The notes beneath the pieces were generated by a model. The model was not told where the DNA came from. It saw only the letters and a program-made list of their open reading frames with translations, and made no database searches. From assembly GCA_017983755.1 (NCBI GenBank), contig JAGOAU010000013.1:1-64000 (forward strand): DNA of 64,000 bases, given 5' to 3'. Shown here one piece after another: positions 303-63,553 of this stretch. The translations under genes were made by a program, and so were the position numbers. Origin of the DNA: Azonexus sp. (GTDB lineage: Bacteria > Pseudomonadota > Gammaproteobacteria > Burkholderiales > Rhodocyclaceae). Each line of letters starts with the position of its first letter. Position 1 is the stretch's first letter.

Positions 303-1618
303 CGCCCCCCCTTTCCGTCCTGCTCGTCGAGGATGACCCCAATGTCCGCCTCGGCTGCGAGCAGGCCATGCAGCTGGCCGGCATCCCGGTCGACGCATTC
401 GCCACCGCCGAGGAGGCGCAGCGCCGCCTGAGCGCTGACTACGCCGGCATTGTCGTCACCGACATGCGCCTGCCGGGCATGGACGGCATGGCGCTGCTGC
501 GCTGGGTCAATCAGCTCGATCCCAACCTGCCGGTCATCATGATCACCGGCCATGGCGACGTGACCCTGGCGGTCGAGGCGATGCGCAGCGGCGCCTACGA
601 CTTCATGCAGAAGCCGTTCTCGACCGGTGATCTGGTCGATGTCGTCCGCCGCGCGCTGGAAAAACGCCAACTGGTGCTCGAGATCGACGCACTGCGCCGC
701 CGCCTCGATCATCGCGACGATCTCGAAGCGCGCCTGATCGGCCGCTCACCGCAGATGGCGAAAGTTCGCCAGCTGATCCTCGATGTCGCCGGTGCTGCGG
801 TCGACGTGCTGATTTTCGGCGAAACCGGGACCGGCAAGGAAATGGTCGCCCGCTGCCTGCACGATCTGAGCGGCGCCAAGCAGGAAAACTATGTCGCCCT
901 CAACTGCGGCGGCATGGCCGACAACCTGCTCGACAGCGAACTCTTCGGGCACGAGCCCGGCGCCTTCACCGGCGCCCAGAAGCGGCGGATCGGCAAGATC
1001 GAATACGCCAGCGGCGGCACGCTCTTCCTTGATGAAGTCGAGTCGATGCCGATGAACATGCAGATCAAGCTGCTGCGCGTGCTGCAGGAACGCGTCATCG
1101 AGCGCCTCGGCTCGAATCAGCTGGTGCCGGTATCCTGCCGGGTGGTGGCGGCGAGCAAGGAGGACCTCAAGGTACTTTCCGACCAGGGAAAATTCCGCGC
1201 CGACCTCTATTACCGGCTCAACGTCGTGCGCATCGAACTGCCGCCGCTGCGCGAACGCCGCGAAGACATCCCGGCGCTCTACGACCAATTCCTGCTGCAG
1301 GCCGCCAAGCGCTACAACCGGCCGCCGCCGGTGGTGACCCCGGAACACCTGCGCCGCCTGATGGCGCTCGACTGGCCGGGCAACATCCGCGAACTGCGCA
1401 ACGCTGCCGAGTGCCACGCGCTGGGCATCGGTCGCGATGCGCCGGCGTCGGGCGGGGGCGAGCCGCTGTCACTGACCGAAACCGTGGAAAACTACGAGCG
1501 TCTGCTGATCGCCGCCGAGTTCACGCGCCAGCAAGGCAACGTCGCACGCACCAGCGAGGCGCTCAAGGTGGCGCGCACCACACTGCACGACAAACTGAAG
1601 AAATACGGCTTGATCTGA
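299..1618 (+). CDS. dctD: NtrC/DctD-class sigma-54-dependent response regulator
   Basis: A 439-residue three-domain activator. Residues 5-120 are a receiver with the acidic pair at 11-13, phospho-acceptor Asp55 and Lys105. Residues about 145-375 are the AAA+ domain with Walker A GETGTGKE (174-181), the sigma-54 contact loop GAFTGA (221-226) and the Walker B DE at 245-246. The last 45 residues form a Fis-type helix-turn-helix ending in LHDKLKKYGLI. It would switch on sigma-54 promoters when phosphorylated by the kinase encoded just upstream (ATGA overlap). Sequence style is closest to DctD, the C4-dicarboxylate transport activator; the class is certain, the dct assignment is an inference, since no dct transport gene is in view. 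Confidence 0.85.
   Translation: MTPPLSVLLVEDDPNVRLGCEQAMQLAGIPVDAFATAEEAQRRLSADYAGIVVTDMRLPGMDGMALLRWVNQLDPNLPVIMITGHGDVTLAVEAMRSGAYDFMQKPFSTGDLVDVVRRALEKRQLVLEIDALRRRLDHRDDLEARLIGRSPQMAKVRQLILDVAGAAVDVLIFGETGTGKEMVARCLHDLSGAKQENYVALNCGGMADNLLDSELFGHEPGAFTGAQKRRIGKIEYASGGTLFLDEVESMPMNMQIKLLRVLQERVIERLGSNQLVPVSCRVVAASKEDLKVLSDQGKFRADLYYRLNVVRIELPPLRERREDIPALYDQFLLQAAKRYNRPPPVVTPEHLRRLMALDWPGNIRELRNAAECHALGIGRDAPASGGGEPLSLTETVENYERLLIAAEFTRQQGNVARTSEALKVARTTLHDKLKKYGLI
796..805 (+). repeat. TGCGGTCGAC repeat copy 1
   Basis: In the dctD-like gene, read AAVDV. Preceded by GC; one tract, ATTTT at 812-816. Confidence 0.85.
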
Positions 1619-1633
1619 GTCCTGCCGCCGCGA

Positions 1634-2251
1634 CTAAGCGGCGGCTTGCGTAGTTGCCAGCCGGCGCACGATGTCGTCGAACACGGCGCGGGAGTTCATG
1701 ATGAAAGTGTGGCTGGCCGCTACCTCGACCCGCTCGCCGCCGTCGCTTGCTACCTCGTCGAGCGCCAGGATGCCGTCGTTGGCCTGATTGCCGAAGGGCA
1801 GCCAGTTGGCGCGCGGGCCGCCGGTGCCGGCGTAGATGACGGTATTGGGCGGTAGCGGCAGACTTTGCATGAAGGACTCGTCGGCGAGCAGGCCGCCCAT
1901 TTCGCCGGTCAGCGCCCGGTAGAGCCGGTAACGCGAGAAAAACCGCGCCGCCTTGCAGGCGCGCATCGGCGGCGCCAGGAAAAAGCAGTGGCAGGGCGGA
2001 TTGGCCGATAATTTACCCAGTGCCCGGCGCAGGATGACCGAGCCAAGCGAATGGCCGATCACCGCGTAAGGCCGCATGCCGGCCACTTGCGCGATGCGGC
2101 GCGCCAGCCGGGCGCTGACGCCGTCCAGATGTTCGGCCCAGGCCGCGTAGCCGAACAGGTGCGTTTGATGCCCGAGTTGCGCGAGGCGCCGCTTCAGGAT
2201 CAGCATCGACGCCGGCGTGCGCCCCATGCCGTGGATGAGGACGATGTGCAT
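1634..2251 (-). CDS. Alpha/beta-hydrolase (lipase-like), 205 aa
   Basis: Starts at the ATG giving MHIVLIHGMG, where the hydrolase fold begins; an upstream in-frame extension to 2305 would overlap the previous gene and adds no recognisable sequence. The oxyanion HG motif is at residues 7-8, the nucleophile elbow GHSLGS puts Ser68 at the active site, and a late ASHTF supplies the likely catalytic His. No signal peptide or membrane helix is seen, so it is probably cytoplasmic. It is the last gene of the leftward envelope operon, two bases after the PAP2 stop. Substrate unknown; an esterase or thioesterase acting on lipid material is plausible. Confidence 0.75.
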   Translation of the reverse strand: MHIVLIHGMGRTPASMLILKRRLAQLGHQTHLFGYAAWAEHLDGVSARLARRIAQVAGMRPYAVIGHSLGSVILRRALGKLSANPPCHCFFLAPPMRACKAARFFSRYRLYRALTGEMGGLLADESFMQSLPLPPNTVIYAGTGGPRANWLPFGNQANDGILALDEVASDGGERVEVAASHTFIMNSRAVFDDIVRRLATTQAAA

Positions 2252-2253
2252 CG

Positions 2254-2937: not shown

Positions 2938-4393
2938 GGAGCAGATAGACGTTCATGGTGCGCGCGGCGCCGCCCGGCAACGGCGCCTGCAGCGTGGCCA
3001 GTTGTTCGCTGGCAGCGAAGCGGCGGGTGAACTCGTCGTCGACCGGGTCCTCGCGGATCAGGATCGCGTCGCGGCCAACATAAGGGCGCAGGTCGGTGGT
3101 CAGCTTGTAGTGGTCGCTGGCGATGCCGGCCGGATTCCAGCTGGCGGCGGCCGGCTTGAGGTCGCGCACTTCGTAGAGCATGTGGGCGAGCAGGGTGCGG
3201 TTGTCGGCTATCAGCACGGCATCCGGGTGGGCCTGCAGCAGCGGCTTCAACTGGCGGCCAAGCTCGTCCCAGCCCTGGGCGCGGGCGTAGAAGTTCGTTT
3301 TTGCCTGTTTTTGCCCGTCGACCGCAGCAAGCACCAGTTGCCAGTGGTAGGCGACGCCGATCAGGGCGATGTTGAGCGCGATGCCGGCGATCAGCAGCCG
3401 CTGCTTGCCGCGCTGCAGCAGCCAGGCGACGACCGCGATGGCGGCCGGGGCGAAGGCTGGCGCCGCCCAGTTGGCGTTGGCGGTGCTCTTGAACGCCTGC
3501 GCCGAGACGACCGCCCACAGCGGCAGGGCGAACCACAGCAGCAGGCGCGTCCGCTCGTCGCGCCAGCTTTTCCTGACCTGAAACAGCAGGATGAAGAAGA
3601 CAGTGCCGAGCACTGGCCCGAAGGCGCCCCATTGCGCCGCCCAGAATTCGCCGAGCGCCTTCAGGCCGCCGCCGGCTTTCCGGTTAACGGTGATGTCGGC
3701 GGTGTGTTTCAGCGTCGGGAAATCGTGGGTGACGTTCCACCACAGGTTCGGCCCCAGGATCGCCAGCGCCAGTCCAGCGGCCAGCCAGGGCTTGGGCGAC
3801 GCCAGCCGGTGGCGGTGGAAGGCCAGCAGGTGCAGGAAGGCGGCGCCCAGCCAGGCGGCCATGGTGTATTTGGAGAGCAGGCCGAGGCCGCAGACGACGC
3901 CGAGCAGCAGCCAGTCGCCCCAGGCGTCGCTGTCCAGCGCGCGCAGGTAGGCCCACAGCGCCAGCGCCCAGAACAGCGTGAGCAAGGCGTCGGTCGAGAC
4001 GAATAGCCCGAGCCAGGCGAAGATCGGCAGGGTCAACACGGCCAGCGCCGACCAGAAGGCGACGCGTGCGTCGTAGAGGCGGCGGGCGATGGCCCAGCAG
4101 GCGGCGGCGGCGAGCGGGTAGCAGAGCATGCCCAGCGCCTTGACGCCGAGCAGGCCGTCGCCGAACAGCGTGGTCGACAGCGCGATCAGCGCGGCGACGC
4201 CGGGCGGCTTGGAGAAGTAGCCCCAGTCGAGGTGCTGCGCCCAAGTCCAGTATTGCGCCTCGTCGACGTAGAGGGTGACGCCCATGTGCGGGACGACCCA
4301 GAAGCGCCAGGCGAGCAGGACGGCGGTCAGGCCGAGCAGGAGCTTGCCGCCGGATTTTCCGTATATTCCGGCGTCGACCGCAGCAGGCGTCAC
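2918..4393 (-). CDS. GT39-family glycosyltransferase, ArnT-like (491 aa)
   Basis: Integral membrane glycosyltransferase of the PMT_2/ArnT family. The diagnostic N-terminal periplasmic loop is present about residues 38-60 (VDEAQYWTWAQHLDWGY, then KPPG), with the acidic pair that is catalytic in this family, followed by about ten hydrophobic helices and a C-terminal soluble part. It would move a sugar from a polyprenyl phosphate to a lipid acceptor at the periplasmic face of the inner membrane. I place the start at the GTG at 4391-4393, which overlaps the TGA of the GT2 gene; the frame stays open further upstream but that stretch is only antisense-frame read-through of the GT2 gene. One TGCGGTCGAC copy lies at codons 4-8 and another inside the gene. 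Confidence 0.85.
   Translation of the reverse strand: MTPAAVDAGIYGKSGGKLLLGLTAVLLAWRFWVVPHMGVTLYVDEAQYWTWAQHLDWGYFSKPPGVAALIALSTTLFGDGLLGVKALGMLCYPLAAAACWAIARRLYDARVAFWSALAVLTLPIFAWLGLFVSTDALLTLFWALALWAYLRALDSDAWGDWLLLGVVCGLGLLSKYTMAAWLGAAFLHLLAFHRHRLASPKPWLAAGLALAILGPNLWWNVTHDFPTLKHTADITVNRKAGGGLKALGEFWAAQWGAFGPVLGTVFFILLFQVRKSWRDERTRLLLWFALPLWAVVSAQAFKSTANANWAAPAFAPAAIAVVAWLLQRGKQRLLIAGIALNIALIGVAYHWQLVLAAVDGQKQAKTNFYARAQGWDELGRQLKPLLQAHPDAVLIADNRTLLAHMLYEVRDLKPAAASWNPAGIASDHYKLTTDLRPYVGRDAILIREDPVDDEFTRRFAASEQLATLQAPLPGGAARTMNVYLLRDFKGY
3317..3326 (-). repeat. TGCGGTCGAC repeat copy 2
   Basis: In the GT39 gene, read AAVDG. Two five-T tracts on the plus strand at 3308-3312 and 3298-3302, ten bases apart. 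Confidence 0.9.
4373..4382 (-). repeat. TGCGGTCGAC repeat copy 3
   Basis: At codons 4-8 of the GT39 gene, read AAVDA. Tracts TATATT (4362-4367) and ATTTT (4354-4358). Confidence 0.9.
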
Positions 4394-9302: not shown

Positions 9303-10974
9303 AGTTCACGGCGCCCGGCCGGTTCTCGGCGAGGCTGAGGACGTAGCCGGTTTCCTCGGCCTGCCTGGCGGCATGGTAAAGGCCGATGCCAAGCCCGTAT
9401 TCCGACGCAACCGGCGCCCGGAACAGCGATTCGGCAATCTCCGGCGCAATGGCCTGGCCGCTGTCGCGCACGCTGAAAACCGGGCTGTTGCGGTCGACCG
9501 TCAATTTGACCGATATTTCGATGCCGCTCTCATGCTGCCGCTTGCTCAATGCGTTCTGCAGCAGGTTTTCGGCAATGCTGTCGAACATGGCGCTCGACAC
9601 CTCGGCGTCGCCCTCCAGGCTCTCGAACCACTGGATGCCGTTGCCGGCATGGCGATCCTGCAGGCGATCCCACCAGGCGACCGCGGAAACGCTGCGACTG
9701 TCTTCGACCTGCGGGCGTTGCAGCTTGTCGAGGGTGGATTTCAGCCGCTCGGCGATCTGCGGCAACTGGCGCGCCAGCAACTGCGCCACGGCGGCCGGGT
9801 CGCCAGGCTGCGCAGCGGCGTAGCACAGCGTCTGGAGTGACTGCAGCAGGTTCTTGACGTCGTGCGTGACGCGGGCACCGGTTTCATACACCGCCTGCAG
9901 GTAGCCCATGCGCTGCAGTTCGTGCGTCTGGAATTTCACGAGATAGAACTCGGTCGCCAGGCGCAGCAGCCATTCCACGTGCCAGCGCATCGCCGGCGAC
10001 GGCGTGTAGCGGAAATACACCGTCAGGCCGACATCGTTGCGCCGGTATTCCTGGGTGTGCGACGAGGCGATGCCGAACTCGCCGGTGTCGTTGCCGGCTC
10101 GCCATTTGCAGCCGACGACCCAGGGCATGCGATCCAGCTGCTCGAGCACAGTGGCTAGGAAGCGGACCGGGTGGGTTTCGCGCTCGCTGGTTTCGGCGAG
10201 GTGGATCAGCCACTGCTCCAGCGGCAGGCCGACAGAAAGCAGGTAGCGCGAAAGCGCCGAGCCGATGCCGGAAAAGCCGCCGCGCGGATTCCATGCCCAG
10301 GCCAGGACAAGCAGGGCGGCGGCAATGGTCAGCGAGGTCTTGGCCAGTGCTTCGACGTAACTGACGTTTCCGACCAACGTGAAGGCGAGGGCGCCGAGCA
10401 CGAAAACGGCGAGGGCCAGAAAGACCAGCATGCCGTAGAAGAGATCGAAGGCGTCGCCGGCCTGGCGGCGCAGCGGATGCGCCGGAAAGGCCAGCAGGAT
10501 GGCCAGCAGGGCGGGCATGTAGAGGGCGATCGTGTTGCGCGGCAGCGGATCGAGGGCCACGGTCGGGGAAATCTCGGGAACGACGCCGAAGATGATCAGG
10601 CAGACGAGATAGCCGAAGGCGTAAAGATAGCCGGTGCGCTCGATGCGGCGGCTGGTCCACAGCACGCGGCCGCCGATGACTGCCGCCAATGCGCCGCACC
10701 AGATCAGCATCAGCCAGGGGCCGAGCAGCCAGGTCGAGGCCAGCGCAATGCCCAGCAGTACGCTGCCCTGGCGCAGGTTCATGCGCTGTTCGCCGGCGAC
10801 GAAAGGTTGCCAGAGCAGGAACAGGCCGAGCGCGACAAACCACAGGATACGGACCGCGGGCAGCTTCCAGCCGCCGAAGGCCAGTGCGTGCAACAGCAGC
10901 AAATGGCCGGCCAGCAAAAAATGCGGGTGGCGCGACCACCAGGGAAGCGGGCTGGAGATGTCTGCGGTGTTCAT
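9280..10974 (-). CDS. Orphan membrane sensor histidine kinase
   Basis: 564 residues from the ATG at 10972-10974; the frame can be read back to a TTG at 11028 but adds no clear domain. About eight N-terminal hydrophobic helices (residues 15-235) are followed by a GAF-like soluble region, a dimerisation helix with the H-box THDVKNLLQ, and a reduced HATPase_c domain with ENLLQNAL (N-box), DSGQAI and GLGIGL. The DVKNLLQ H-box and overall layout recall PrsK-type kinases. No response regulator is adjacent, so its partner is encoded elsewhere. It contains a TGCGGTCGAC copy at 9489-9498. Confidence 0.82.
   Translation of the reverse strand: MNTADISSPLPWWSRHPHFLLAGHLLLLHALAFGGWKLPAVRILWFVALGLFLLWQPFVAGEQRMNLRQGSVLLGIALASTWLLGPWLMLIWCGALAAVIGGRVLWTSRRIERTGYLYAFGYLVCLIIFGVVPEISPTVALDPLPRNTIALYMPALLAILLAFPAHPLRRQAGDAFDLFYGMLVFLALAVFVLGALAFTLVGNVSYVEALAKTSLTIAAALLVLAWAWNPRGGFSGIGSALSRYLLSVGLPLEQWLIHLAETSERETHPVRFLATVLEQLDRMPWVVGCKWRAGNDTGEFGIASSHTQEYRRNDVGLTVYFRYTPSPAMRWHVEWLLRLATEFYLVKFQTHELQRMGYLQAVYETGARVTHDVKNLLQSLQTLCYAAAQPGDPAAVAQLLARQLPQIAERLKSTLDKLQRPQVEDSRSVSAVAWWDRLQDRHAGNGIQWFESLEGDAEVSSAMFDSIAENLLQNALSKRQHESGIEISVKLTVDRNSPVFSVRDSGQAIAPEIAESLFRAPVASEYGLGIGLYHAARQAEETGYVLSLAENRPGAVNFTLAPRN
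9489..9498 (+). repeat. TGCGGTCGAC repeat copy 4
   Basis: Antisense to the histidine kinase gene, which reads it TVDRN. Tracts AATTT (9503-9507) and ATATTT (9513-9518). Confidence 0.9.
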
Positions 10975-13785: not shown

Positions 13786-14784
13786 ATGAGCCAAAGCGCC
13801 AATTCCCATCAATTCTCGCCCGAACGTGCCCTGGCGCTGGGTCGCCAGACGCTGAGCATCGAGGCGGCTGCGGTCGACGCGCTGGTTGGGCGGATAAATG
13901 GCGGCTTCGCGGCGGCGGTCGAATTGATTCTCGGCTGCCATGGTCGCCTGATCGTCAGCGGCATGGGCAAGTCCGGGCATGTCGCGCGCAAGATCGCCTC
14001 GACCATGGCCAGCACCGGGACGCCGGCCTACTTCGTGCACCCTGCCGAAGCCAGCCACGGCGATCTCGGCATGATCACCCGTGACGATGTGTTGCTGGCG
14101 CTCTCCAATTCCGGTGAATCGGAAGAACTGCTGCGCATCGTGCCGCTGATCAAGCGCCAGGGCGCGCGGCTGATCGCCATGACCGGCGTGCCGACCTCGA
14201 CGCTGGCGCGCGAGGCCGATGTCCATCTCGATGCCGGTGTCGAACAGGAGGCCTGCCCGCACAACCTGGCGCCGACCGCAAGCACGACCGCGGCGCTGGC
14301 GCTTGGCGACGCGCTGGCGGTGGCGCTGCTCGATGCGCGCGGCTTCGGGCCGGACGATTTCGCCCGCTCCCACCCCGGCGGTTCGCTTGGCCGCCGTCTG
14401 CTGACGCACGTGCGCGACGTCATGCGCAGCGGCGAGGCGGTGCCGACGGTCGGGCCGCAGGCCGGCGTGAGCGAGGCGATCCTCGCCATGTCGCGTGGCG
14501 GCCTCGGGCTGGTGGCCATCGTCGATGACGGCGGCCGGACGCTCGGCATCTTTACCGATGGTGACTTGCGCCGTGCCTTCGAGAAGCGCATCGACCTGCA
14601 GTCGGCACCCATCGCCAGCGTCATGCACGCCGGGCCGCGCACGATTTCGCCTGAGCGCCTGGCTGTCGAGGCAGTCGAAATGATGGAGCGCTACCGGATC
14701 AACGCGCTGCTGGTGGCCGACCCGGATGGCCGCCTGCTCGGCGCGCTCAACATGCATGACCTGTTCACGGCCAAGGTGATCTGA
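13786..14784 (+). CDS. kdsD: Arabinose-5-phosphate isomerase
   Basis: 332 residues from the ATG at 13786. An N-terminal SIS sugar-isomerase domain (about 35-170: GMGKSGH, STGTPAYF, SNSGESEE) is followed by SHPGGSLGR and two CBS domains (about 205-332). It interconverts ribulose-5-phosphate and arabinose-5-phosphate, the first step to Kdo for lipopolysaccharide. kdsC follows with a TGATG overlap, then lptC and lptA, a standard LPS-core/transport operon. Confidence 0.95.
   Translation: MSQSANSHQFSPERALALGRQTLSIEAAAVDALVGRINGGFAAAVELILGCHGRLIVSGMGKSGHVARKIASTMASTGTPAYFVHPAEASHGDLGMITRDDVLLALSNSGESEELLRIVPLIKRQGARLIAMTGVPTSTLAREADVHLDAGVEQEACPHNLAPTASTTAALALGDALAVALLDARGFGPDDFARSHPGGSLGRRLLTHVRDVMRSGEAVPTVGPQAGVSEAILAMSRGGLGLVAIVDDGGRTLGIFTDGDLRRAFEKRIDLQSAPIASVMHAGPRTISPERLAVEAVEMMERYRINALLVADPDGRLLGALNMHDLFTAKVI
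13869..13878 (+). repeat. TGCGGTCGAC repeat copy 5
   Basis: In kdsD, read AAVDA. One distant tract, ATAAAT at 13894-13899. Confidence 0.8.
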
Positions 14785-17936: not shown

Positions 17937-17963
17937 AAACCCGCGAATTTCGCGGGTTTTTTT
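17937..17963 (+). terminator. Terminator of phasin copy 2
   Basis: 9-bp stem AAACCCGCG/CGCGGGTTT with AATTT loop and a seven-T run. A TGCGGTCGAC copy begins three bases after the T-run; the terminator's A/T tracts take the place of the flanking tracts seen at other copies. Confidence 0.92.
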
Positions 17964-17965
17964 AC

Positions 17966-17975
17966 GTCGACCGCA
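17966..17975 (-). repeat. TGCGGTCGAC repeat copy 6 (intergenic)
   Basis: Between the phasin terminator and the CinA-like stop. T7 at 17957-17963 and AATTT at 17946-17950. Confidence 0.9.
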
Positions 17976-17984
17976 AGCGGCCGT

Positions 17985-22400: not shown

Positions 22401-23426
22401 GTCCTGTTCGCCGGCCGAGAGGCGCGAGAACAGCGGCAGGATTTCCGGCGCGTGGGCGCTGCTCAAACCGGGTCTTGCCAGCGCGTGCTTGCGCAAGGCT
22501 TCCGCCGCCTCGCGGATTTCGCGTTCGCCGGGCAGGAAGACAAGGATATCGCCGCTGCCCAGCCGCGCCAGTTCGTCGGCGGCATCGACGATGGCGTCGT
22601 AGAGATCGCGCTCGTCGTCGTCCTTGTCGAGATCGGAAACCGGCCGGTAACGCACGTCGACCGGATAGAGGCGGCCCGAGACCTCGATCACCGGGGCACC
22701 CGTGAAATGCTGCGAAAAGCGCTCGGCGTCGATGGTCGCCGAGGTGATGATCAGCTTCAGGTCCGGGCGCCTGGGCAGCAACTGCTTCAGGTAGCCGAGC
22801 AGGAAGTCGATGTTCAGGCTGCGCTCGTGCGCCTCGTCGATGATGATCGTGTCGTAGGCGCCGAGATACGGGTCGGACTGCGACTCGGCGAGCAGGATGC
22901 CGTCGGTCATCAGCTTGACCCAGCTGTCTGCGGTCGACTTGTCGTGGAAGCGGATTTTGACGCCGACGCCGGCGCCGACCTGCGTTTTCAGTTCCTGCGC
23001 CAGCCGCGTCGCCACCGAGCGCGCCGCCAGCCGGCGCGGCTGGGTATGGCCGATCAGTCCGCTGCCGCCGCGCCCGAGTTCGAGGCAGATTTTCGGCAAC
23101 TGCGTCGTCTTGCCGGAGCCGGTCTCGCCGCAGACGATCACCACCTGATGCTTGCGGATCAGTTCGGCGATTTCAGCGCGCCGCTCGTTGACCGGCAGGT
23201 CGGCCTGGAAGTCCGGCCTGGGCAGGCTGGACTGACGCTTTTCCAGGGCGGCGCGCGATTTCTCCAGCAGCGCCGAGAAGTCGGCCTGCAGTTTTTCGCG
23301 TTTTTCACCCGTCGACCGCAACAGATTGCGCTGCATGCCGCGCAAGCGGCCGTAATCGGCCGTCAGGCACGGCAGGCGTTCGCTGGATTCCGCGTGCGTC
23401 CGTTTTTGCGCAGTGTTTTTTGCCAT
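19473..23426 (-). CDS. hrpA: ATP-dependent RNA helicase HrpA
   Basis: 1317 residues, normal for HrpA (about 1300). Start set at the MAKN ATG; a preceding ATG adds one Met and the open frame further up looks non-coding. DEAH helicase motifs run in order: GETGSGKTT (I), DEAHER (II), TSATID (III), TNVAETSLTV (V) and QRAGRCGR (VI), followed by the ratchet/OB region and the HrpA-specific C-terminal DUF3418 domain. It resolves stalled ribosomes and acts on mRNA in E. coli. Two TGCGGTCGAC copies lie in its N-terminal third. Confidence 0.96.
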   Translation of the reverse strand: MAKNTAQKRTHAESSERLPCLTADYGRLRGMQRNLLRSTGEKREKLQADFSALLEKSRAALEKRQSSLPRPDFQADLPVNERRAEIAELIRKHQVVIVCGETGSGKTTQLPKICLELGRGGSGLIGHTQPRRLAARSVATRLAQELKTQVGAGVGVKIRFHDKSTADSWVKLMTDGILLAESQSDPYLGAYDTIIIDEAHERSLNIDFLLGYLKQLLPRRPDLKLIITSATIDAERFSQHFTGAPVIEVSGRLYPVDVRYRPVSDLDKDDDERDLYDAIVDAADELARLGSGDILVFLPGEREIREAAEALRKHALARPGLSSAHAPEILPLFSRLSAGEQDRIFKPSGSQRRIVLATNVAETSLTVPGIRYVIDTGLARVKRYSYRNKVEQLQIEKISQAAARQRAGRCGRVAAGVCIRLYDEDDFNARAPFTDPEILRSSLAGVILRMKSLKLTDVESFPFIEPPPAKAVADGYALLQELGALDDDNRLTRVGEALARLPLDPRIGRMLVAARDLGCLKEVLVIAAGLSTQDPRERPQERQQAADEKHKLFADEKSEFLGWVKLWNWFKAAVDHKKSNKSLVDTCHAHFLSYLRLREWREVHGQLHAMVTELGWKESEIPGTYDAIHMALLSGLLGNIGCKSDESGYYLGARGIRYLIHPSSPLQKKAGKWIMAAEITETTRLFGRCVARIEDGWIEKAGAHLIKRQYFDAHWEKKAMQVAGWERTTLYGVVINPKRRIHYGPLAPAESREIFIRQGLVGEEIDDAFARRWPFFQHNQKLIREIEHLEHKQRRQDVLVDDELIFAFYDHLIPEGIHNGATFDHWRKEAERESPKLLYLSKDDLMRHSAAGVTTEAFPHHLKVGGVDYTLTYHFEPGSPRDGVTLTLPLAQLNQIPVLRMEWLVPGLLKEKLVQLIKTLPQKIRAKLVPVPEFVEEFMSTVAGNEKKMNQGLIQPLIDHILEARGLNARGWAVTPDAFRPDALPAHFSMNYKLIDEHGRQLDMNRSLVALRAEWGKEAKQEFAELHETPSEFTNLTDWTFGELPELMEVPVAGQTVLGYPALTDDGETVSLKVFDSAEEAAAEHRAGLLRLFMLQFRDQVKYFDKNIPGLSQMAMQYMALGSNDDLKRQIVALTFERACLSEPLPTTPTAFKSRCGDSKARLGLIMQEVCRLVGTVLAEWQAVVKKLPPFKAHAAAVQDIESQVKRLMGRNFVIDTPFERLQHYPRYFKAIQIRLDKLKANPARDAALLADYAPLWTSYERRAIQLAKLGAVDPQIEQFRWLLEELRVGLYAQELRTPVPVSVKRLQKQWEGIQHG
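22929..22938 (+). repeat. TGCGGTCGAC repeat copy 7
   Basis: Antisense to hrpA, which reads KSTAD. One far tract, ATTTT at 22954-22958. Confidence 0.8.
23311..23320 (-). repeat. TGCGGTCGAC repeat copy 8
   Basis: In hrpA, read LRST, only 372 bases from copy 7 and in the opposite orientation. Two five-T tracts, 23301-23305 and 23292-23296. Confidence 0.9.
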
Positions 23427-24754: not shown

Positions 24755-25150
24755 ATGAAAAACATCCGCTACGAGGGCCGTTTTCCCCTGCTGCTGGCGG
24801 CGCTCTTTTTTACCTTCCTCGGGGCGTCGACCGCAGCCGGCAAGCTGCCGCCGATGCTGCTCGGCCTCTATGCTGCGGCCAGTCTGGTCGCCTTCGCCGC
24901 CTACGCACTGGACAAGTCGGCGGCTCGTGGCGGCCGCCGGCGAACGCCGGAAAAAACCTTGCACCTGCTGGCGCTGCTCGGCGGCTGGCCGGGCGCGCTG
25001 GTGGCACAGAACCGCCTGCGCCACAAGTCGAGCAAGACGCCGTTTCTTGCCGTTTTCTGGGCCACCGTCCTGCTTAACTGCATGGCACTCGGGCTGTATC
25101 TGACGCCGGCCGGTGCCAGGGCGCTGCGTGCCGCACTCGGCATTGCCTGA
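24755..25150 (+). CDS. DUF1294 membrane protein
   Basis: 131 residues, three or four hydrophobic segments. The DUF1294 signature is clear: YALDKSAA, then TPEKTLHLLALLGGWPGA and NRLRHKSSKTPF. In many bacteria this domain is fused to a cold-shock domain; here it stands alone. ATG follows the upstream stop without a gap. Function unknown. A TGCGGTCGAC copy on the opposite strand is read as STA at codons 24-27. Confidence 0.85.
   Translation: MKNIRYEGRFPLLLAALFFTFLGASTAAGKLPPMLLGLYAAASLVAFAAYALDKSAARGGRRRTPEKTLHLLALLGGWPGALVAQNRLRHKSSKTPFLAVFWATVLLNCMALGLYLTPAGARALRAALGIA
24826..24835 (-). repeat. TGCGGTCGAC repeat copy 9
   Basis: Antisense to the DUF1294 gene, which reads ASTAAG. Tract at 24806-24812, 13 bases away. 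Confidence 0.85.
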
Positions 25151-25897: not shown

Positions 25898-25922
25898 GCG
25901 GGTCGGCCGCCAATTTTGCCGC

Positions 25923-26657
25923 CTATTCGTCGTCGACCGCAGCGTTGTAGTTCTTCAGCCGCTTCTCGGCTGCGACACCGAGTATCTTCAGCAGCCAGGG
26001 CGGTGGCGACTCGAGCATGGCGGTCTGGAAGGGCCTGAGGATGTCAGCGGCCGGGCCGCCGTCGGGAATCTTGATTGGGTAGATGTCGGCGCGGATCACC
26101 TTGGCCGCCGCCGGGCCGCCGATGGAGACGACGTAGCAGACGTGGCAGTCGCCGATCAGTTTGGCGCGCCACAGGTTGCGGTCTTCGGCGAACTCGGCAT
26201 CCATCGTGTCGCGGATGTCGACGAGGCGGATTTCGCCCGGCGATACCTGATACACGAGGAAGCGCAGGCAGGCGCCGAAATGCCCGGAGAGCGTGTCGCC
26301 CTTGTCCGAGGCGATGGCGACGCGCACCGAACCGGGCATCTCGCCGTCTGCGTAAGGCTGTATCTTGGGCAGCGTGTCGTCGCCCTGGGTTTCACCCCAG
26401 AGGATGCGCACCGCCAGCTTCATGGATTCAAGGCCGATGCCGATGTCCTCGCCGTCCTCCTCGCCGTCGGTGCTGGCGAAGCCGGTCTTGAGCATGGTCA
26501 CCGTGACCTGGCGCAGCTTTTCTTCGTCGATCGTGTCGCCCAGGCGGCGTTGCAGCTGTTCGATCAGCGCCGGCAGCGTCACCCTGGGCATTGCCCGCGC
26601 TGCCAGCACCACGCGCAGCGCGGCCTCGCGGGTGATCGGAAGCGTGCCTGTTTCCAT
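25923..26657 (-). CDS. NafY/NifX-like iron-molybdenum cofactor-binding family protein
   Basis: 244 residues from the ATG at 26655-26657 (GAGGAG upstream). N-terminal helical domain (about 1-110) resembles the NafY sterile-alpha-motif-like part; residues about 125-230 are a dinitrogenase FeMo-cofactor (NifB-C/NifX) fold: VRVAIASDKGDTLSGHFG and the late VSIGGPAAAKVIRA. NafY holds FeMo-co or apo-dinitrogenase during nitrogenase assembly. No nif gene is nearby, so it may be a nif accessory gene away from the main cluster or a metal-cluster carrier with another role. The last codons (AAVDDE) contain a TGCGGTCGAC copy. Confidence 0.8.
   Translation of the reverse strand: METGTLPITREAALRVVLAARAMPRVTLPALIEQLQRRLGDTIDEEKLRQVTVTMLKTGFASTDGEEDGEDIGIGLESMKLAVRILWGETQGDDTLPKIQPYADGEMPGSVRVAIASDKGDTLSGHFGACLRFLVYQVSPGEIRLVDIRDTMDAEFAEDRNLWRAKLIGDCHVCYVVSIGGPAAAKVIRADIYPIKIPDGGPAADILRPFQTAMLESPPPWLLKILGVAAEKRLKNYNAAVDDE
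25932..25941 (-). repeat. TGCGGTCGAC repeat copy 10
   Basis: In the last codons of the NafY-like gene (AAVDDE). Tracts TATT (25924-25927) and AATTTT (25912-25917). Confidence 0.9.
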
Positions 26658-36330: not shown

Positions 36331-37140
36331 GTGCGCCTGTGCGGCGCGCTGGGACTGCTGCTCGCCAGCGCCGCCGGCCTGGCGCTGCCGCAGCATTCAC
36401 CGGTGCCGGGCGGCGTCGCCGTCATCGACCTTAGCGCGGCGGGCACGCCGGCGCCGACCGCGCGGTGGGGCGAGCAGCCGCTCGCCGTACTGCGCGACAA
36501 CGGGCGCTGGGTGGCGCTGCTCGGTATCCCGCTCGACACTTTGCCGGGCCCGCTGGAAATCGACGTTTTCAGCGGGTCGACCGCAACCGCCCGTAGCGTG
36601 GCGGTCCAGGTCAAGAACTACCCGGAACAGCGCCTGACGATCAAGGACAAGCGCAAGGTCGAGCCCAACGCGGACGATCTGGCGCGCATCGAGCGCGAAC
36701 GGGAGATAACCGAAGCGATCAAGCGCCGCTTCAGCCCGCCAGCGCCGGATGCCGACTTCGCACTGCCGGCCGCCGGCCCGCTGTCGTCGCGCTTCGGCCT
36801 GCGCCGCATCTTCAACGGCCAGCCGCGCAACCCGCATGCCGGGCTCGACGTCGCCGTCGGCACCGGCGCGCCGGTCAAGGCACCGGCCGCCGGCATCGTG
36901 GCCAACACCGGCGATTACTTCTTCAACGGCAACACCGTGTTCATCGACCACGGCCAAGGTCTGATCACCGCCTACATGCACCTGTCGCGCATCGACGTCC
37001 GTTCCGGTCAACCGGTCAAAAAGGGCGAAATCCTCGGCGCCGTCGGCGCCACCGGCCGGGTGACCGGCCCGCACCTGCACTGGGCCGTCATCCTCAACAA
37101 TACGCCGGTCGATCCCGAGCTGTTCCTGGCGCGGCCCTAG
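36331..37140 (+). CDS. M23-family peptidoglycan endopeptidase
   Basis: 269 residues if started at the GTG at 36331, which gives a clean signal peptide (MRLCGALGLLLASAAGLA); an earlier GTG at 36295 would overlap ypfJ. The C-terminal LytM domain has the zinc ligands of HAGLD and PHLHW with intact spacing, so it should be active and not a degenerate EnvC/NlpD-type activator. It would cut peptide crosslinks in the periplasm. Confidence 0.88.
   Translation: MRLCGALGLLLASAAGLALPQHSPVPGGVAVIDLSAAGTPAPTARWGEQPLAVLRDNGRWVALLGIPLDTLPGPLEIDVFSGSTATARSVAVQVKNYPEQRLTIKDKRKVEPNADDLARIEREREITEAIKRRFSPPAPDADFALPAAGPLSSRFGLRRIFNGQPRNPHAGLDVAVGTGAPVKAPAAGIVANTGDYFFNGNTVFIDHGQGLITAYMHLSRIDVRSGQPVKKGEILGAVGATGRVTGPHLHWAVILNNTPVDPELFLARP
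36576..36585 (-). repeat. TGCGGTCGAC repeat copy 13
   Basis: Antisense to the M23 peptidase gene, which reads GSTAT. Tracts TTTT (36566-36569) and AAAT (36557-36560). Confidence 0.9.
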
Positions 37141-47044: not shown

Positions 47045-47072
47045 AAAACGCCGGCGGTTGCCGGCGTTTTGC
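47045..47072 (+). terminator. Terminator of phaJ-like gene
   Basis: 11-bp stem AAAACGCCGGC/GCCGGCGTTTT, GGTT loop. A TGCGGTCGAC copy follows at 47078-47087, between this and the convergent pseudouridine synthase gene. Confidence 0.88.
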
Positions 47073-47077
47073 CTTGC

Positions 47078-47087
47078 TGCGGTCGAC
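47078..47087 (+). repeat. TGCGGTCGAC repeat copy 14 (intergenic)
   Basis: Between the phaJ-like terminator and the convergent pseudouridine synthase. Tracts AAAAA (47091-47095) and AAAA (47103-47106). Confidence 0.9.
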
Positions 47088-47116
47088 CTGAAAAAGGGGC
47101 CGAAAACTGCTGTTCG

Positions 47117-48178
47117 TCAGAAGGCTTCGTCAGCCCGCAGAAAGCGCCACTGCCCGAGCGGCAGATCGCCCAGCTTGACGCGGCCGATGCGTACCCGTTT
47201 GAGGCCGGTGACGCGCAGCCCGACCTGTTCGCACATGCGGCGAATCTGGCGCTTCTTGCCTTCCTTCAGGATGAAGTGCAGCTGATCCTCGTTCAGCTGC
47301 TTGACTCGCGCCGGCTTGAGCGGCTGGCCATCGAGTTCGAGGCCGTGGTTGAGTAGCTTCAGGCCATGCGGAATCATCTCGCCGGTCACCCGCACCAGAT
47401 ATTCCTTTTCCACCTGGCTGTCGTCGCCGATCAGTTTCCTGGCGACACGGCCGTCCTGGGTCAACACCAACAGTCCGGTCGAATCGATGTCCAGTCGCCC
47501 GGAAGGCGCCAGATTGCGCAGCATCCATGGTTTGAAGTCGGGATCGCCCGACTGCCTGAGCTGGTTTTCCGCCGTGATCAGGGTGATGGCCGGGGTAAAG
47601 CCCGGCTCCGGCTGGCCGGAGACATAGCCGACTGGCTTGTTGAGCAGCACCGTGACCTGCTTGGCCTGATCCTGCTTGGCCTCTTTCGAGATCGCGATGT
47701 CGGCGTCGGGCTTGATGCGGGTGCCCAGTTCGCTGATCCGTTCGCCATCGACGAAGACCCAGCCGCGCTCGATCCAGAGATCCGCCTCGCGCCGCGAGCA
47801 CATGCCGCGTTCGGACATGATCTTGGACAGGCGCACGCCTTCCGGCGCCGGGGCATTGGCTGACGCGGCAGGGCGCACCGGCTGCGCCGCCAGCGGCTTG
47901 CGCGCGGCGGGCACCGCCTTGGTTGGTGGCGTCGGGCGTTGTCCGCCGCCGGCCGGCTTTTTCGCCGTGGGAGCAGGCGATTTGGTCGCGCGCTTGACGA
48001 CGCCAAGGGTTCCCGTCGGCTTGGCCTTGGGCTCGACGACCGTCGGTTCGGTTTTTGGCTTTTTTTCAGCGTCGACCGCAACAGGCGCTTCCGGCTTGCG
48101 CCATTTAGCCCACGGGTCGTCGCCAGCCGTCTCGCTCGTTGGCGGCCCGGATTTGCTGTCCCGTTCGGAACCGCTCAT
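47117..48178 (-). CDS. RsuA/RluB/RluF-family rRNA pseudouridine synthase
   Basis: 353 residues. A low-complexity Lys/Pro/Ala-rich N-terminus (about 1-115) precedes an S4 RNA-binding domain ([18 protein letters not shown]) and the catalytic domain with [17 protein letters not shown] (catalytic Asp) and [13 protein letters not shown]. The GYVSGQ variant in the start of the catalytic domain departs from classical RluB. Which uridine it modifies is not readable. Overlaps the FKBP gene by ATGA. Confidence 0.88.
48071..48080 (-). repeat. TGCGGTCGAC repeat copy 15
   Basis: In the low-complexity N-terminus of the pseudouridine synthase, read VAVDAEKK. Tracts at 48060-48066 and 48052-48056. Confidence 0.9.
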
Positions 48179-56428: not shown

Positions 56429-57303
56429 ACGCGACCTTCGTTGACCGGCGGCAGGTCGGCCGCCGCTTTTCCCGCGTCGCGGCGAATTACGAACAGGCAG
56501 ATTTCTTCGCCCGCGAGGTCGATCGCCGCATGCAGGAGCGGCTCGATTACATCAAGCTCGAGCCGAAGCGCATTCTCGATCTCGGTTGCAGCCGGGGGGG
56601 CAGCATTCCCGGCCTCGCGGCTCGTTATCCCGCTGCCCAACTGATCGGCCTGGATATTTCTCCGGCCATGTTGCAGGCTGGCCAAATCGCACGTCCGGGC
56701 TGGCAGCGCTGGCTGGGCCTGGGGCGCCAGGCTCAGGTGCAGCGGTTGGCCGGCGATGCCGTGAAATTGCCCCTCAAATCGCAGTCGACCGCAATCGTCT
56801 GGTCCAACCTGTTGCTGCACTGGCTGGACGACCCGTTGCCAGCGCTTGCCGAGGCTCACCGTGTGCTCGAAGTCGGTGGTCTGCTGATGTTTTCGACGCT
56901 GGGTCCGGATTCGCTGAAGGAGTTGCGCTCGGCATTTTCCGATGGCTATGCGCACACCCAGCGTTTCATCGACATGCACGACCTCGGCGACATGCTGGTT
57001 GGCTGCGGCTTTGCCGACCCGGTGATGGACATGGAAGTCCTGACCCTGACGTACGACGTTTTCGACGACATGCTCGGCGAACTGCGCGCAGCCGGTTCCG
57101 GCTGTGCCATGAAGGCGCGCCGCCACGGCCTGACCGGACGCCAGACCTGGGCGAGGGCGCGTGCTGCATATGAAGGCTTGCGTAGCGACGGCAAGCTGCC
57201 GGCGACATTCGAGATCGTCTACGGCCACGCCTGGAAGGTGCCGCCGAAGCAGACCGCCGATGGCCGCGCCGTCATCCGTTTCGATGCGCCGCGCCGGAAG
57301 TAG
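56425..57303 (+). CDS. bioC: Malonyl-ACP O-methyltransferase
   Basis: 292 residues with a TTG start overlapping the bioB stop. SAM-binding [10 protein letters not shown] (about 50-60), [13 protein letters not shown] after the core, and the BioC-type FIDMHDLGD. Methylates malonyl-ACP so the fatty-acid pathway can build pimeloyl-ACP. Contains a TGCGGTCGAC copy. Confidence 0.9.
56784..56793 (-). repeat. TGCGGTCGAC repeat copy 16
   Basis: Antisense to bioC, which reads QSTAI. Tracts AAAT (56776-56779) and AAATT (56764-56768). Confidence 0.85.
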
Positions 57304-57306: not shown

Positions 57307-57972
57307 CTAATCCGGCTTCTGCCTGAAGAACTTGAGCGGCTTGGCGGCAGGAAACTGCGGCACCGGAATTGCCTTGCGCTGCCGTTCGCGCACGCGCCAG
57401 CCGAGCAGGAAGGCGAGGGCAACCGAGTAGGCCAGCGGCCACAGCAGCGCCGTCGCCTTGACCAGCCAGAAATAATGGACGCAGGCGAGAATGCTGATCA
57501 GGTAGACGTTGCGGTGCAGTTCCTGCCACTTGCGCCCGCCCAGTTTGCGGATCGCCCACTGGTTCGACGTTGCGGCCAGCGGAATCAGCAGCAGAAATGC
57601 AGCGAAGCCGACGGTGACGAAGGGGCGCTTGAAAATGTCCTTGGCGATTTCGTCGACCGCAAAAGAATGGTCGAAGCCGATGAAGGACAGGAAATGGAGC
57701 GTCGCATAAAAGAAGGTGAACAGGCCGAGCATGCGCCGCAGACGGAGCAGCCAGTGCCATTCTGTGTAGTGGCGAAGCGGCGTGATGCAGAGCGTCAGCA
57801 GCAGGAAATTGATGGTCCAGGTGCCGGTCCAGCGCTGGACGAACTCGACCGGGTTGGGGCCGAAGTCGCCGGTGTAGGCGGCCCACAACAGTCGTCCCAG
57901 CGGCAGCAGGGCGACAAGGAAAAGGGCGGCTTTGAGCTGGGCGATCGGCGGGGTGGTATTTTGCGTGTTCAT
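57307..57972 (-). CDS. msrQ: Haem-binding membrane subunit MsrQ
   Basis: 221 residues, six helices of the ferric-reductase-like fold (FVQRWTGTWTINFLLLTLCITPLRH start, HFLSFIGFDHS, RKLGGRKWQELHR) with the haem-ligating histidines. Passes electrons from the quinone pool to MsrP. Three bases after msrP. Confidence 0.95.
   Translation of the reverse strand: MNTQNTTPPIAQLKAALFLVALLPLGRLLWAAYTGDFGPNPVEFVQRWTGTWTINFLLLTLCITPLRHYTEWHWLLRLRRMLGLFTFFYATLHFLSFIGFDHSFAVDEIAKDIFKRPFVTVGFAAFLLLIPLAATSNQWAIRKLGGRKWQELHRNVYLISILACVHYFWLVKATALLWPLAYSVALAFLLGWRVRERQRKAIPVPQFPAAKPLKFFRQKPD
57652..57661 (-). repeat. TGCGGTCGAC repeat copy 17
   Basis: In msrQ, read FAVDE. Tracts ATTT (57647-57650) and AAAAT (57632-57636). 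Confidence 0.85.
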
Positions 57973-60408: not shown

Positions 60409-61071
60409 ATGCCTTTGTTCCAGCAGGCGGTTTTTCTTACGACCGTCGCCCATCTTCGCGATCTGCCGCAAGACTCCGTTCGTGAAGTCGCCTTTGCCGG
60501 GCGCTCCAATGCCGGCAAGTCTTCCGCGATCAATACGCTGGCCGGGCGTGTCCGCCTGGCGTATGTCAGCAAGACACCCGGCCGCACCCAGCATCTCAAT
60601 TACTTCACGCTGTCAGACGGCAAATACTTTGTCGACCTGCCCGGTTACGGGTATGCCAAGGCGCCGGAAGCAATCCGCTCGCAGTGGGAGGGGCTGATCG
60701 GCCCCTATCTCAGCAAGCGGGAGCAACTGGCCGGTCTGGTCGTCATTATGGATATTCGCCGGCCGTTGACTGACCTGGATTTGCGCCTGATCGACTGGTT
60801 CCGTCCGACGGGGCGTCCCATCCACGTGCTGCTGTCCAAGGCGGACAAACTGAGTCGACAGGAGCAGACGAGAGCGCTGCGTTCGGTCAAGGCGGAACTG
60901 GCGACCTGGGGCGATGCCGAGTTGTATTCGGTGCAACTCTTCTCCAGCCTGAAAAAGACGGGGGTCGAGGAGGCGGAGACGGTATTGGCCGGCTGGCTGG
61001 GGATCGAGAAAAAAGTGCCGGCAAACAAAAGACCCCCGGATAAGGGGGGTCCGGGGGCCAAAATGCCTTAA
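60409..61071 (+). CDS. engB: Ribosome biogenesis GTPase YsxC/EngB
   Basis: 220 residues from ATG 60409. G motifs: GRSNAGKSS (G1), TPGRT (G2 region), DLPGYGYAK (G3), SKADKL (G4). Needed for 50S assembly. The last 14 residues ([13 protein letters not shown] tail) are encoded by a GC-rich hairpin, 61033-61057. Confidence 0.95.
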
Positions 61072-61189
61072 CGTGGTCAAGGCACCCGCTCAGGGAGGTG
61101 AAGCGGGAGACAGCGCGTGCCATCTGCTGAGTCTGACGTGGGTCAATGCGAAAAGTTCCACAGCGAACAAAAATCTGCAATCTGAATGA

Positions 61190-62253: not shown

Positions 62254-62255
62254 TT

Positions 62256-62867
62256 TCAGGCGTTGGCCGGCACCCCGGACTGCGACAGGCAGGCGAAGTA
62301 AAGCATCGGCCATTGCTGCGGCCATTGTGCCAGCGGCTCGCGGACGAAGCCGCTGCGCGCATACTGTTCCCAGCGGCCGACGACGTAGCAGCGCAGCAGG
62401 TTCGCCAGGGCGCCGAAATCGGCGTCCGGCTTCAGGTTTTCCTGCGCTGCGGCGATGCGCAGCGCCTGTTTCAGGGCCGCCTCGGTCTTGTCGAGCAGGG
62501 CATTGATGCGCGTCTGCAGGCGTTCGTTTTCATTGCTCAGGGCGTCGCCGATCAGCACGCGCGTCATGCCGCGATTTTTCTGGGCGAAGCGTAGCAACAG
62601 GCCGAGGATCAATTCCACCTGCTTGAGCCCCTGGGTTTCTTCGGAAGTGATCTGGTTGATTACGCCGAACAGGCTTTGCTCAATGAATTCGATCAGTCCG
62701 TCGAACATCTGGGCCTTGCTGGCGAAGTGGCGATAGAGCGCGGCTTCGGAGCATTCCAGTTTGGCCGCGAGGGCGGCGGTGGTGATCTTCTCCCCCTTGG
62801 GCGTTTCCAGCATCTGGGCCAGGGTTTGCAGAATTTGCAGGCGGCGTTCGCCGGGCTTGGTCGCCAT
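62256..62867 (-). CDS. slmA: Nucleoid occlusion factor SlmA (TetR family)
   Basis: 203 residues; HTH with ITTAALAAKLECSEAALYRHF is the SlmA signature, and length fits. In gammaproteobacteria SlmA binds chromosome sites and disrupts FtsZ rings over DNA. Neighbouring argB and a HAD gene match the usual betaproteobacterial context. Confidence 0.9.
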   Translation of the reverse strand: MATKPGERRLQILQTLAQMLETPKGEKITTAALAAKLECSEAALYRHFASKAQMFDGLIEFIEQSLFGVINQITSEETQGLKQVELILGLLLRFAQKNRGMTRVLIGDALSNENERLQTRINALLDKTEAALKQALRIAAAQENLKPDADFGALANLLRCYVVGRWEQYARSGFVREPLAQWPQQWPMLYFACLSQSGVPANA

Positions 62868-62911
62868 GGTCTTGTCTCCCTCCGTTATGGTTTTTGGATT
62901 TTGCCCAAAAA

Positions 62912-63553
62912 TTATAGTCGACCGCAGCGTTCCGGAAGTTCGAGCACCGAGGTGATTTTTTGATCGACACTGGGTGAGCGGCGGTAGCTAGCGCTTACCC
63001 ACACGGTCTTCATGCCGAGTTTCTTGGCGGCGACGAGATTGGCGAGACTGTCCTCGACCATGATGCAGCGTCGCGGGTCGAGCCGTTCCGCGCGCAGCAG
63101 CGTGCGGAAGCCGGCGAGCATCGGTTTTGGCTGGTAACGGACGTTTTCGACCGAATAGACGGCGTCGAAGCAGGCATCCAGGCCGGTGATTTCGAGGATG
63201 GCCTCGGCGTAGAGGCGTGGCGCGTTGGAAAAGATGATCTTGCGCCCGCGCAGGCGACGCAGGGCGTGGATGACCGGGCGCTCGAAGACGACGAGGCGGC
63301 GCAGATCGGGAAACTGGTGCGTTTCGCGCAGGAAATGGTCGGGGTCAGTGCCGTGATGGCGGATCAGGCCGAGCAGTGTGGCGCCGTAGCGTACCCAGTA
63401 ATCCTGCCGGATGCGCGTCGCTTCGTGCCGGTCGACGCCCAGATGCCGCTCGATGTAGTCGCGCATCGAGCGGTTGATGTGGGGAAAGATGTGGGGGGTC
63501 GCGTTGTGGAGGGTGTTGTCGAGGTCGAATAGCCAGGTGCGACCGGACTTCAT
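62912..63553 (-). CDS. HAD-superfamily pyrimidine 5'-nucleotidase
   Basis: 213 residues. HAD motifs WLFDLDNTLH (nucleophile Asp10), SNAPRLYAE (motif II), KPMLAGF (Lys) and VEDSLANL (motif IV). Dephosphorylates pyrimidine nucleotides or related phosphates. The final codons and stop (CGRL, TAA) overlap a TGCGGTCGAC copy. Confidence 0.88.
   Translation of the reverse strand: MKSGRTWLFDLDNTLHNATPHIFPHINRSMRDYIERHLGVDRHEATRIRQDYWVRYGATLLGLIRHHGTDPDHFLRETHQFPDLRRLVVFERPVIHALRRLRGRKIIFSNAPRLYAEAILEITGLDACFDAVYSVENVRYQPKPMLAGFRTLLRAERLDPRRCIMVEDSLANLVAAKKLGMKTVWVSASYRRSPSVDQKITSVLELPERCGRL
62917..62926 (-). repeat. TGCGGTCGAC repeat copy 18
   Basis: Across the last codons of the HAD gene (CGR before Leu-stop). 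Tracts at 62907-62916, 62898-62902 and 62891-62895. Confidence 0.9.

Follow-up and report, generated by a model that had tools for sequence, protein, structure and literature searches.

Copies of the repeat in the 64-kb window

The DNA analyzed here is a stretch of 64,000 nucleotides from Azonexus sp. (contig JAGOAU010000013.1, positions 1 to 64,000), referred to as the window throughout. It represents contig 35 of a metagenome-assembled genome (MAG) of 2.5 Mb that is 74% complete. The subject of this text is a short repeat with the core TGCGGTCGAC, which is scattered over the genes and intergenic regions of the window, and its highly probable role as a DNA-uptake signal of the genus Azonexus/Dechloromonas.

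A sequence-only reading of the window had reported 18 exact copies of this core, 16 of them in genes, where about 0.3 would be expected by chance. The copies were said to be preceded by a pyrimidine and, mostly, a G before it, to be followed in most cases by A/T tracts and to follow no peptide motif. All of this was borne out on recounting. The same 18 copies were found at the same places, seven on the plus strand and eleven on the minus strand, while dinucleotide shuffles of the window (n = 100) yielded a mean of 0.32 and a maximum of 3 copies. The preceding base is a pyrimidine in 18 of 18 copies and the base one further upstream is a G in 14 of 18. Runs of at least four A/T bases are present within +13 to +21 in 14 of 18 copies and within +24 to +33 in 17 of 18, against backgrounds of 7.5% and 8.4% for these two places, respectively. 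The 16 copies located in open reading frames (ORFs) are read as AVD (8 copies), STA (4), RST (2), VDR (1) and CGR (1), and the copies at 17966 and 47078 are intergenic. Because of these five readings, together with the intergenic and antisense copies, a peptide-driven repeat was rejected. The individual copies, most of which have the extended motif described below, are as follows:

Copy 1, 790..826, plus strand: core 796-805 with extended motif; AVD frame
Copy 2, 3296..3332, minus strand: core 3317-3326 with extended motif; AVD
Copy 3, 4352..4388, minus strand: core 4373-4382 with extended motif; AVD
Copy 4, 9483..9519, plus strand: core 9489-9498 with extended motif; antisense, VDR
Copy 5, 13863..13899, plus strand: core 13869-13878 with extended motif; AVD
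Copy 6, 17945..17981, minus strand: core 17966-17975; intergenic
Copy 7, 22923..22959, plus strand: core 22929-22938 with extended motif; antisense, STA
Copy 8, 23290..23326, minus strand: core 23311-23320 with extended motif; RST
Copy 9, 24805..24841, minus strand: core 24826-24835 with extended motif; antisense, STA
Copy 10, 25911..25947, minus strand: core 25932-25941; AVD, second tract past the stop codon
Copy 11, 28979..29015, plus strand: core 28985-28994 with extended motif; RST
Copy 12, 33715..33751, plus strand: core 33721-33730 with extended motif; AVD
Copy 13, 36555..36591, minus strand: core 36576-36585 with extended motif; antisense, STA
Copy 14, 47072..47108, plus strand: core 47078-47087; intergenic
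Copy 15, 48050..48086, minus strand: core 48071-48080 with extended motif; AVD
Copy 16, 56763..56799, minus strand: core 56784-56793 with extended motif; antisense, STA
Copy 17, 57631..57667, minus strand: core 57652-57661 with extended motif; AVD
Copy 18, 62896..62932, minus strand: core 62917-62926 at a gene end (CGRL stop), tracts past the stop

Elsewhere in the window an anti-hemB small RNA is located at 61025-61110 on the minus strand (Rfam RF02837, 72 bits).

Abundance and spacing in the genome

The genome to which the window belongs, hereafter the own genome, harbours 586 exact copies of TGCGGTCGAC in the 2,515,346 bases available, compared to 13 copies of the reversed word. In a 427-kb sample of this genome, made up of the window and 20 further stretches, 107 copies were found where an order-3 Markov model predicts 5.2, and the excess read from the window thus holds far beyond it. 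In the same comparison TGCGGTCGAC is the top-scoring 10-mer of the sample. In a separate control, 200 permuted 10-mers average 1.87 copies. A weight matrix detected 191 sites at a threshold yielding ~5 in Markov sequence of equal size, a number that is somewhat optimistic since the matrix was refined on the same 427 kb. The earlier estimate of over 1000 copies in a genome comes within reach when tract-bearing near-matches are counted as well, extrapolation then giving roughly 1100 sites in 2.5 Mb. Neighbouring copies are spaced slightly more evenly than random (standard deviation/mean of 0.77 for 87 gaps in the sample including the window), although this statistic is biased by the 20 kb stretches.

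The 586 copies are divided over the strands as 295/291, without orientation bias, and copies on both strands were also found in the sampled DNA of motif-bearing genomes. This balance bears on the possibility that the repeat is a polar chromosome-processing motif, of a Chi-like, KOPS-like (FtsK-orienting polar sequence) or replichore-orienting kind. The repeat resembles such motifs in being short, frequent and mainly genic. However, its strands are balanced, not only in the own genome but also in the single-chromosome genome G181 (236/254). Furthermore, the plus-strand A-dialect places of genome G183 (dialects are described below) extend through the first 2.6 Mb without leaving half a chromosome empty, as judged by eye from the subset listed. 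Chi-like, KOPS-like and replichore-orienting motifs are not known to carry phased tracts, and a function of this type is considered highly improbable for the tract-bearing repeat.

Anatomy of the motif

Alignment of the 107 copies showed that the flanks are strongly conserved and include two tracts at a distance of 11 bp, in agreement with the phased tracts read from the window. The shared 36-bp frame is G.CKGY-TGCGGTCGAC-..C.-AAAAA-..GSC.-AAWTT-C, with conservation spanning -5 to about +32 and nothing clear further out. Upstream, the conserved positions are G(-5), C(-3), T/G(-2), G(-1) and Y(0), the core occupies +1 to +10 (YTGCGGTCGAC in the own genome when the preceding base is included), and downstream C13, an A-rich segment at 15-19, G22-G/C23-C24, A/T at 26-30 and C31 are conserved. 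The tract centres are thus located at +17 and +28, 11 bases apart. A/T content amounts to 0.69 and 0.85 in the two tracts and to 0.23 between them, compared to 0.36 and 0.34 at the same tract places after 200 permuted 10-mers; positions 27-29 of the second tract are 96-98% A/T. Runs of at least four A/T bases occur at the first place in 64 of the 107 copies, at the second in 92 and at both in 59. Among one-base neighbours of the core, the A/T content of the second tract is kept in TGCGGTCAAC (29 copies, 0.82), CGCGGTCGAC (21 copies, 0.69) and TACGGTCGAC (7 copies, 0.69), but not in others, for example TGCCGTCGAC (15 copies, 0.33) and TGCGCTCGAC (10 copies, 0.40). That only some of these neighbours retain the tracts indicates that core and tracts go together.

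Distribution, dialects and loss

The genus pattern, defined as CGGTCRAC followed by both tracts, was counted in 76 Dechloromonas/Azonexus genomes, which were classed as motif-rich (at least 150 copies), as having 50-149 copies or as having fewer than 50. The motif-rich class comprises 40 genomes with 158-650 copies, whereas 2 genomes have 50-149 and 34 have fewer than 50 copies; the reversed pattern, used as a control, gave at most 12 matches in every one of the 76. In 241 genomes from 67 other genera of the family the maximum was 8 matches, and it was also 8 in 368 other genomes of the class. One genome of another genus of the family (G138) has 4 pattern matches in total and carries, at 1-6350 of the 42 kb contig L287, three full-length motif copies of the YTGCGGTC / YTACGGTC kind within ~2.7 kb; these are either DNA imported from an Azonexus or part of a misbinned contig.

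A scan of species genomes with the extended pattern matched at least 102 stretches. Of the 80 for which record names were inspected, 76 carry the names Dechloromonas, Azonexus, Rhodocyclaceae or Betaproteobacteria and 2 are from OSL_B.mb.10. The remaining 2 are outsiders with a single match each, namely a Verrucomicrobia MAG contig (L063), which may be misbinned, and Enterobacter ENT03 (L107), where the match may be due to chance. Cultured members with at least one match among the matches listed are Dechloromonas denitrificans ATCC BAA-841, D. hortensis MA-1, Azonexus hydrophilus ZS02 and A. fungiphilus DSM 23841, and more than one match was listed for Dechloromonas sp. H13. In a viral collection one contig carries the extended pattern in the TG dialect.

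The repeat occurs in dialects, the first of which was met in G002 (CCACGGTCAACCGGAAAAA). The weight matrix of this genome drifted into two registers and the simple pattern was taken for its dialect. In sampled DNA, the two bases before CGGTC are TG in 57 of 70 sites of the own genome and in 6 of 8 and 7 of 8 sites of two other groups, CA/TA in 39 of 53 sites of the G204-G012 group and 22 of 23 of the G181-G011 group, and GG in 4 of 4 sites of G121-G186; G183-G184 is mixed, and three further groups have fewer than four sites. Genome-wide, an A precedes CGGTC in at least 60% of the copies in 13 of the 40 motif-rich genomes. When this trait was placed on a ComEC tree containing 39 of the 40, 4 changes were required compared to at least 8 in 200 shuffles. 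The dialects follow phylogeny, the bases before the shared CGGTC(G/A)AC being clade-specific.

Motif-rich genomes are spread over many parts of the ComEC tree. The motif-rich label requires 11 changes among 69 genomes, compared to a mean of 22.6 when labels are shuffled; well-supported branches make 8 of the 11 changes unavoidable. The repeat has been lost repeatedly within the genus. Nine genomes have intermediate copy numbers of 25-89 (G005, G215, G171, G202, G182, G185, G007, G201 and G213) and may show the repeat decaying once uptake specificity was lost; for G005 (89 copies; 10% contaminated) and G213 (6%) contamination is an alternative.

Origin, persistence and location of the copies

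Sites aligned to a motif copy were compared between genomes. In other motif-rich genomes the match was 0.83 for the 8-base core and 0.69 for the upstream flank (604 pairs), whereas in motif-poor genomes (here fewer than 20 copies) it was 0.455 for the core and 0.68 for the flank (306 pairs). Since these pairs are not independent, the sites were grouped by orthology. This resulted in 42 groups, 8 of which contain at least five motif-rich plus motif-poor genomes. In these 8 groups the core was kept in 51 of 156 motif-rich, 2 of 40 intermediate and 0 of 75 motif-poor cases (Fisher 3e-9, without phylogenetic correction), the zero partly restating the copy counts because the sites were found in motif-rich genomes; with one copy per group left out, 43 of 148 motif-rich genomes kept the core. 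Of the 306 alignments to motif-poor genomes, 279 are ungapped across the motif span, from which it follows that copies come and go by substitution. A small mobile repeat spread by copying, such as a miniature inverted-repeat transposable element (MITE) or a REP-like (repetitive extragenic palindromic) element, would agree with the many copies and their strong consensus. Apart from the ungapped alignments, however, the conservation that stops at ~36 bp and the copies inside open reading frames speak against such an element, which is scarcely credible as an explanation.

In the own-genome sample 31 of the 107 copies were called intergenic compared to 9.6 expected, using a crude gene caller that overcounts intergenic copies by at least one (the copy at 48071 was called intergenic though it lies inside ORF 47117..48178). 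The other 76 copies are genic, and 42 of these read xxT GCG GTC GAC (AVD). Copies prefer intergenic or non-coding DNA.

Phased A-tracts are typical of bent-DNA sites. Together with the intergenic enrichment, they would suit a genome-wide binding site of a cytoplasmic protein (nucleoid-associated, regulatory or chromosome-organising) that reads the core and the two phased A-tracts. This explanation is nevertheless regarded as unlikely, in view of the 76 genic copies in both orientations and the strong consensus of the 10-base core. Restriction to one genus, dialects and repeated whole-genome loss would be odd for a housekeeping factor, and the repeat is missing from the one acquired island looked at, which is described in the following section.

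Competence genes and the search for a receptor

ComEC is encoded in 71 of the 76 genus genomes, including all 51 good ones, and FimT/GspH in 69. A ComEA-model match was found in 75 of the 76 genomes, in 67 of them over the curated cut-off; the weaker matches in long frames are probably other helix-hairpin-helix (HHH) proteins. In the own genome the ComEA match exceeds the cut-off. This genome also encodes two minor pilins, one with a GspH domain (FimT-like) and one PilE-like, as well as a PilV-like pilin whose score falls just short of the cut-off of its model. The sequence-only reading had proposed to look for comEA/comEC and pilin homologues, and ComEC, ComEA and FimT proved widespread in the genus, but none of the pilin families tested distinguishes motif-rich from motif-poor genomes. 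The receptor search began with a clustering of the N-methyl pilins from six genomes. In a comparison of three motif-rich and two motif-poor genomes, a short PilA-like pilin looked specific to the former, but it was rejected as receptor; its profile matches 26 of the 76 genomes, rich and poor alike. Searches of PDB sequences with two minor pilins returned general pilin matches only, none of them named ComP or FimT. The window itself contains at 11106-11738 (plus strand) a 210-aa ORF with a type IV pilin N-terminal methylation motif (PF07963), for which, beyond this motif, no NCBIfam family was found over cut-off.

The comEC gene is a recurrent insertion target in the genus, with inserts of ~33.8 kb in G002 (G002:C33; L285, L286, L271), 32.5 kb in G207 (G207:C1; L270), 5.3 kb in G035 (L259) and 2.3 kb in G028 (L264). 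The breaks are located near residues 273-290 in the numbering of the G181 protein. At the start of the G002 insert lies the gene of a large serine recombinase (Pfam Resolvase/Recombinase); a type IIG restriction-methylation protein and a BovA-like CHAT protein are encoded in it as well.

These data raise the question whether the repeat is a relic only, left by an ancestral uptake signal in a species that has since lost its uptake specificity. Loss is frequent in the genus, no ComEC was detected in the MAG of the window, and G002 retains 457 copies although its comEC is split by the island. However, the presence of a single exact core, with its tracts, in 586 copies implies that it was maintained until recently, and the 9 of 76 genomes that are read as losing the repeat have 25-89 copies. 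A mere relic is regarded as very unlikely.

A probable DNA-uptake signal of Azonexus and Dechloromonas

What the sequences show is the repeat itself, how it is built, where it occurs, its dialects, its loss and the way its copies arise. As judged from them, the repeat most probably serves the genus as a DNA-uptake signal, which would resemble the uptake signal sequence (USS) of the Pasteurellaceae and have arisen separately. Uptake, a receptor and the mechanics of the tracts are what we infer. A surface receptor would bind the core; this is most likely a minor type IV pilin, for which a FimT-like or PilE-like protein is the natural candidate. The phased stiff or bent tracts would help to draw the duplex through the secretin, after which motif-bearing DNA would enter via ComEA/ComEC and recombine. 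Copies would build up because uptake favours alleles that drift towards the motif, which then displace motif-less ones; the copies would decay when competence or specificity is lost.

Several points weigh against this interpretation. We know of no uptake or transformation experiment. In the own MAG (74% complete) no ComEC was found, and among the 76 genomes the presence of ComEC, ComEA, FimT or the PilA-like pilin does not tell motif-rich genomes from motif-poor ones. A broken comEC is only weakly commoner in motif-poor genomes (6/21 vs 4/37, p 0.15), with the slightly shortened genes of G180 and G203 taken as intact and the contig-edge cases G001, G006, G019 and G211 left out. In the 427-kb sample exact copies do not outnumber near-misses (107 vs 189 copies with one mismatch, summed over 30 neighbours and including background). 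Inverted pairs at short distance are also scarce, only 3 of 87 neighbour gaps being shorter than 100 bp and two of these being overlapping palindromes; frequent inverted pairs or terminators are, however, a common and not a defining trait of uptake signals. The pattern was derived from the own genome, and some 'motif-poor' genomes could have a dialect too divergent for it to find. A k-mer check for other signals or dialects in motif-poor genomes covered little DNA. In 196 kb of G016 the best 10-mer has z 7.9, and in 115 kb of G180 it has z 7.8. When genomes were pooled for each of two motif-poor clades, z rose to 11.8 and 12.5, which may reflect one locus entering the pool several times from related genomes. 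This check is not very sensitive, because the pooled motif-rich genomes G183/G184 reach only z 13.4. The tree used for dialects and loss is that of a single gene (ComEC), with several long branches. Finally, the island splitting comEC in G002 (~33.8 kb) contains 0 CGGTCRAC compared to 74 in 156 kb of the sampled rest of this genome, but this test is weak: the lower G+C of the island itself predicts only 2.5 copies, and the absence is therefore supporting, not decisive.

Comparison with known uptake signals

In the excerpts available, uptake signals are described as known only from Neisseriaceae and Pasteurellaceae (PMC12616744, 2025), and a 2026 terminator survey reports them in these two families (PMC13020248). 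Since the Azonexus repeat seldom forms close pairs, this survey could have missed it. In Campylobacter, recognition is methylation-dependent and of a different kind, according to the excerpt of PMC8468864. Among the matches listed in the open-licence PMC literature no paper was found that describes a signal of this kind for Dechloromonas, Azonexus or other Rhodocyclaceae, and it appears that no uptake signal was previously known in this group.

Haemophilus tells its own DNA apart by an uptake signal with the same three-part build as the repeat. The USS of the Pasteurellaceae has a Hin-type core, AAGTGCGGT, and an Apl-type core, ACAAGCGGT (excerpts of PMC1626085 and PMC12616744). As far as these excerpts describe it, the USS shares with the Azonexus repeat a core that is followed at its 3' side by two A/T-rich segments about one helical turn apart, and GCGGT is common to the repeat and both cores. 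Balanced strands, genic copies combined with intergenic enrichment, clade dialects and origin by substitution are further similarities. On the other hand, the Azonexus core runs on to CGAC, without the AAGT/ACAA of the USS, and its A-dialects read ACGG, so that GCGG, the inner core of the USS, is not invariant here. The first tract begins ~8 bases past GCGGT instead of just 3' of the core, the density of exact copies is ~0.23 per kb compared to close to one per kb, and the consensus is less sharp. Also unlike the Pasteurellaceae/Haemophilus USS, close inverted pairs are few and perfect copies do not outnumber near-misses. Of the Pasteurellaceae cores, AAGTGCGGT is present in 2 copies and ACAAGCGGTC in 0 in the own-genome sample, and the own-genome pattern revealed no bridging lineages among the 241 family and 368 class genomes. 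Descent from the Pasteurellaceae USS is not supported: the repeat has the two 3' A/T segments but neither that core nor an invariant GCGG, and for this pattern no continuous line of descent was found. The sequence-only reading had left the choice between an independent and an anciently related signal; with at most 8 matches in any of these other genomes, the data favour the former and not the latter.

The DNA uptake sequence (DUS) of the Neisseriaceae is likewise found in betaproteobacteria. It consists of GCCGTCTGAA and its dialects (excerpt of PMC3630211). According to the same excerpt the DUS, like the Azonexus repeat, is a genome-wide repeat of ~10 bases whose dialects follow phylogeny (PMC3630211). 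The two have no core in common; GCCGTCTGAA, the only DUS dialect counted, has 0 copies in the 427-kb sample. In contrast to the tract-bearing Azonexus repeat, the neisserial DUS is described as lacking flanking motifs (excerpt of PMC1626085), and it often builds terminator hairpins (excerpt of PMC1852404), whereas the Azonexus repeat seldom occurs in close pairs.

The repeat would probably constitute a third, separately born family of uptake signals, the first outside Neisseriaceae and Pasteurellaceae. It would have converged on the Pasteurellaceae design of a GCGGT-containing core and two A/T tracts one turn apart. As a further case, found in environmental bacteria and in a genus that comprises both 40 motif-rich genomes and 34 with fewer than 50 copies, it would make it possible to test how a signal starts, how receptor and dialect change together, why the tracts are phased and how loss appears. 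If this is true, the spread of a signal, changes of its dialect, its decay and its loss can all be seen within a single genus, and the two tracts of the Azonexus and Pasteurellaceae signals would reflect a mechanical requirement for pulling duplex DNA through the outer membrane, not an accident of one family.

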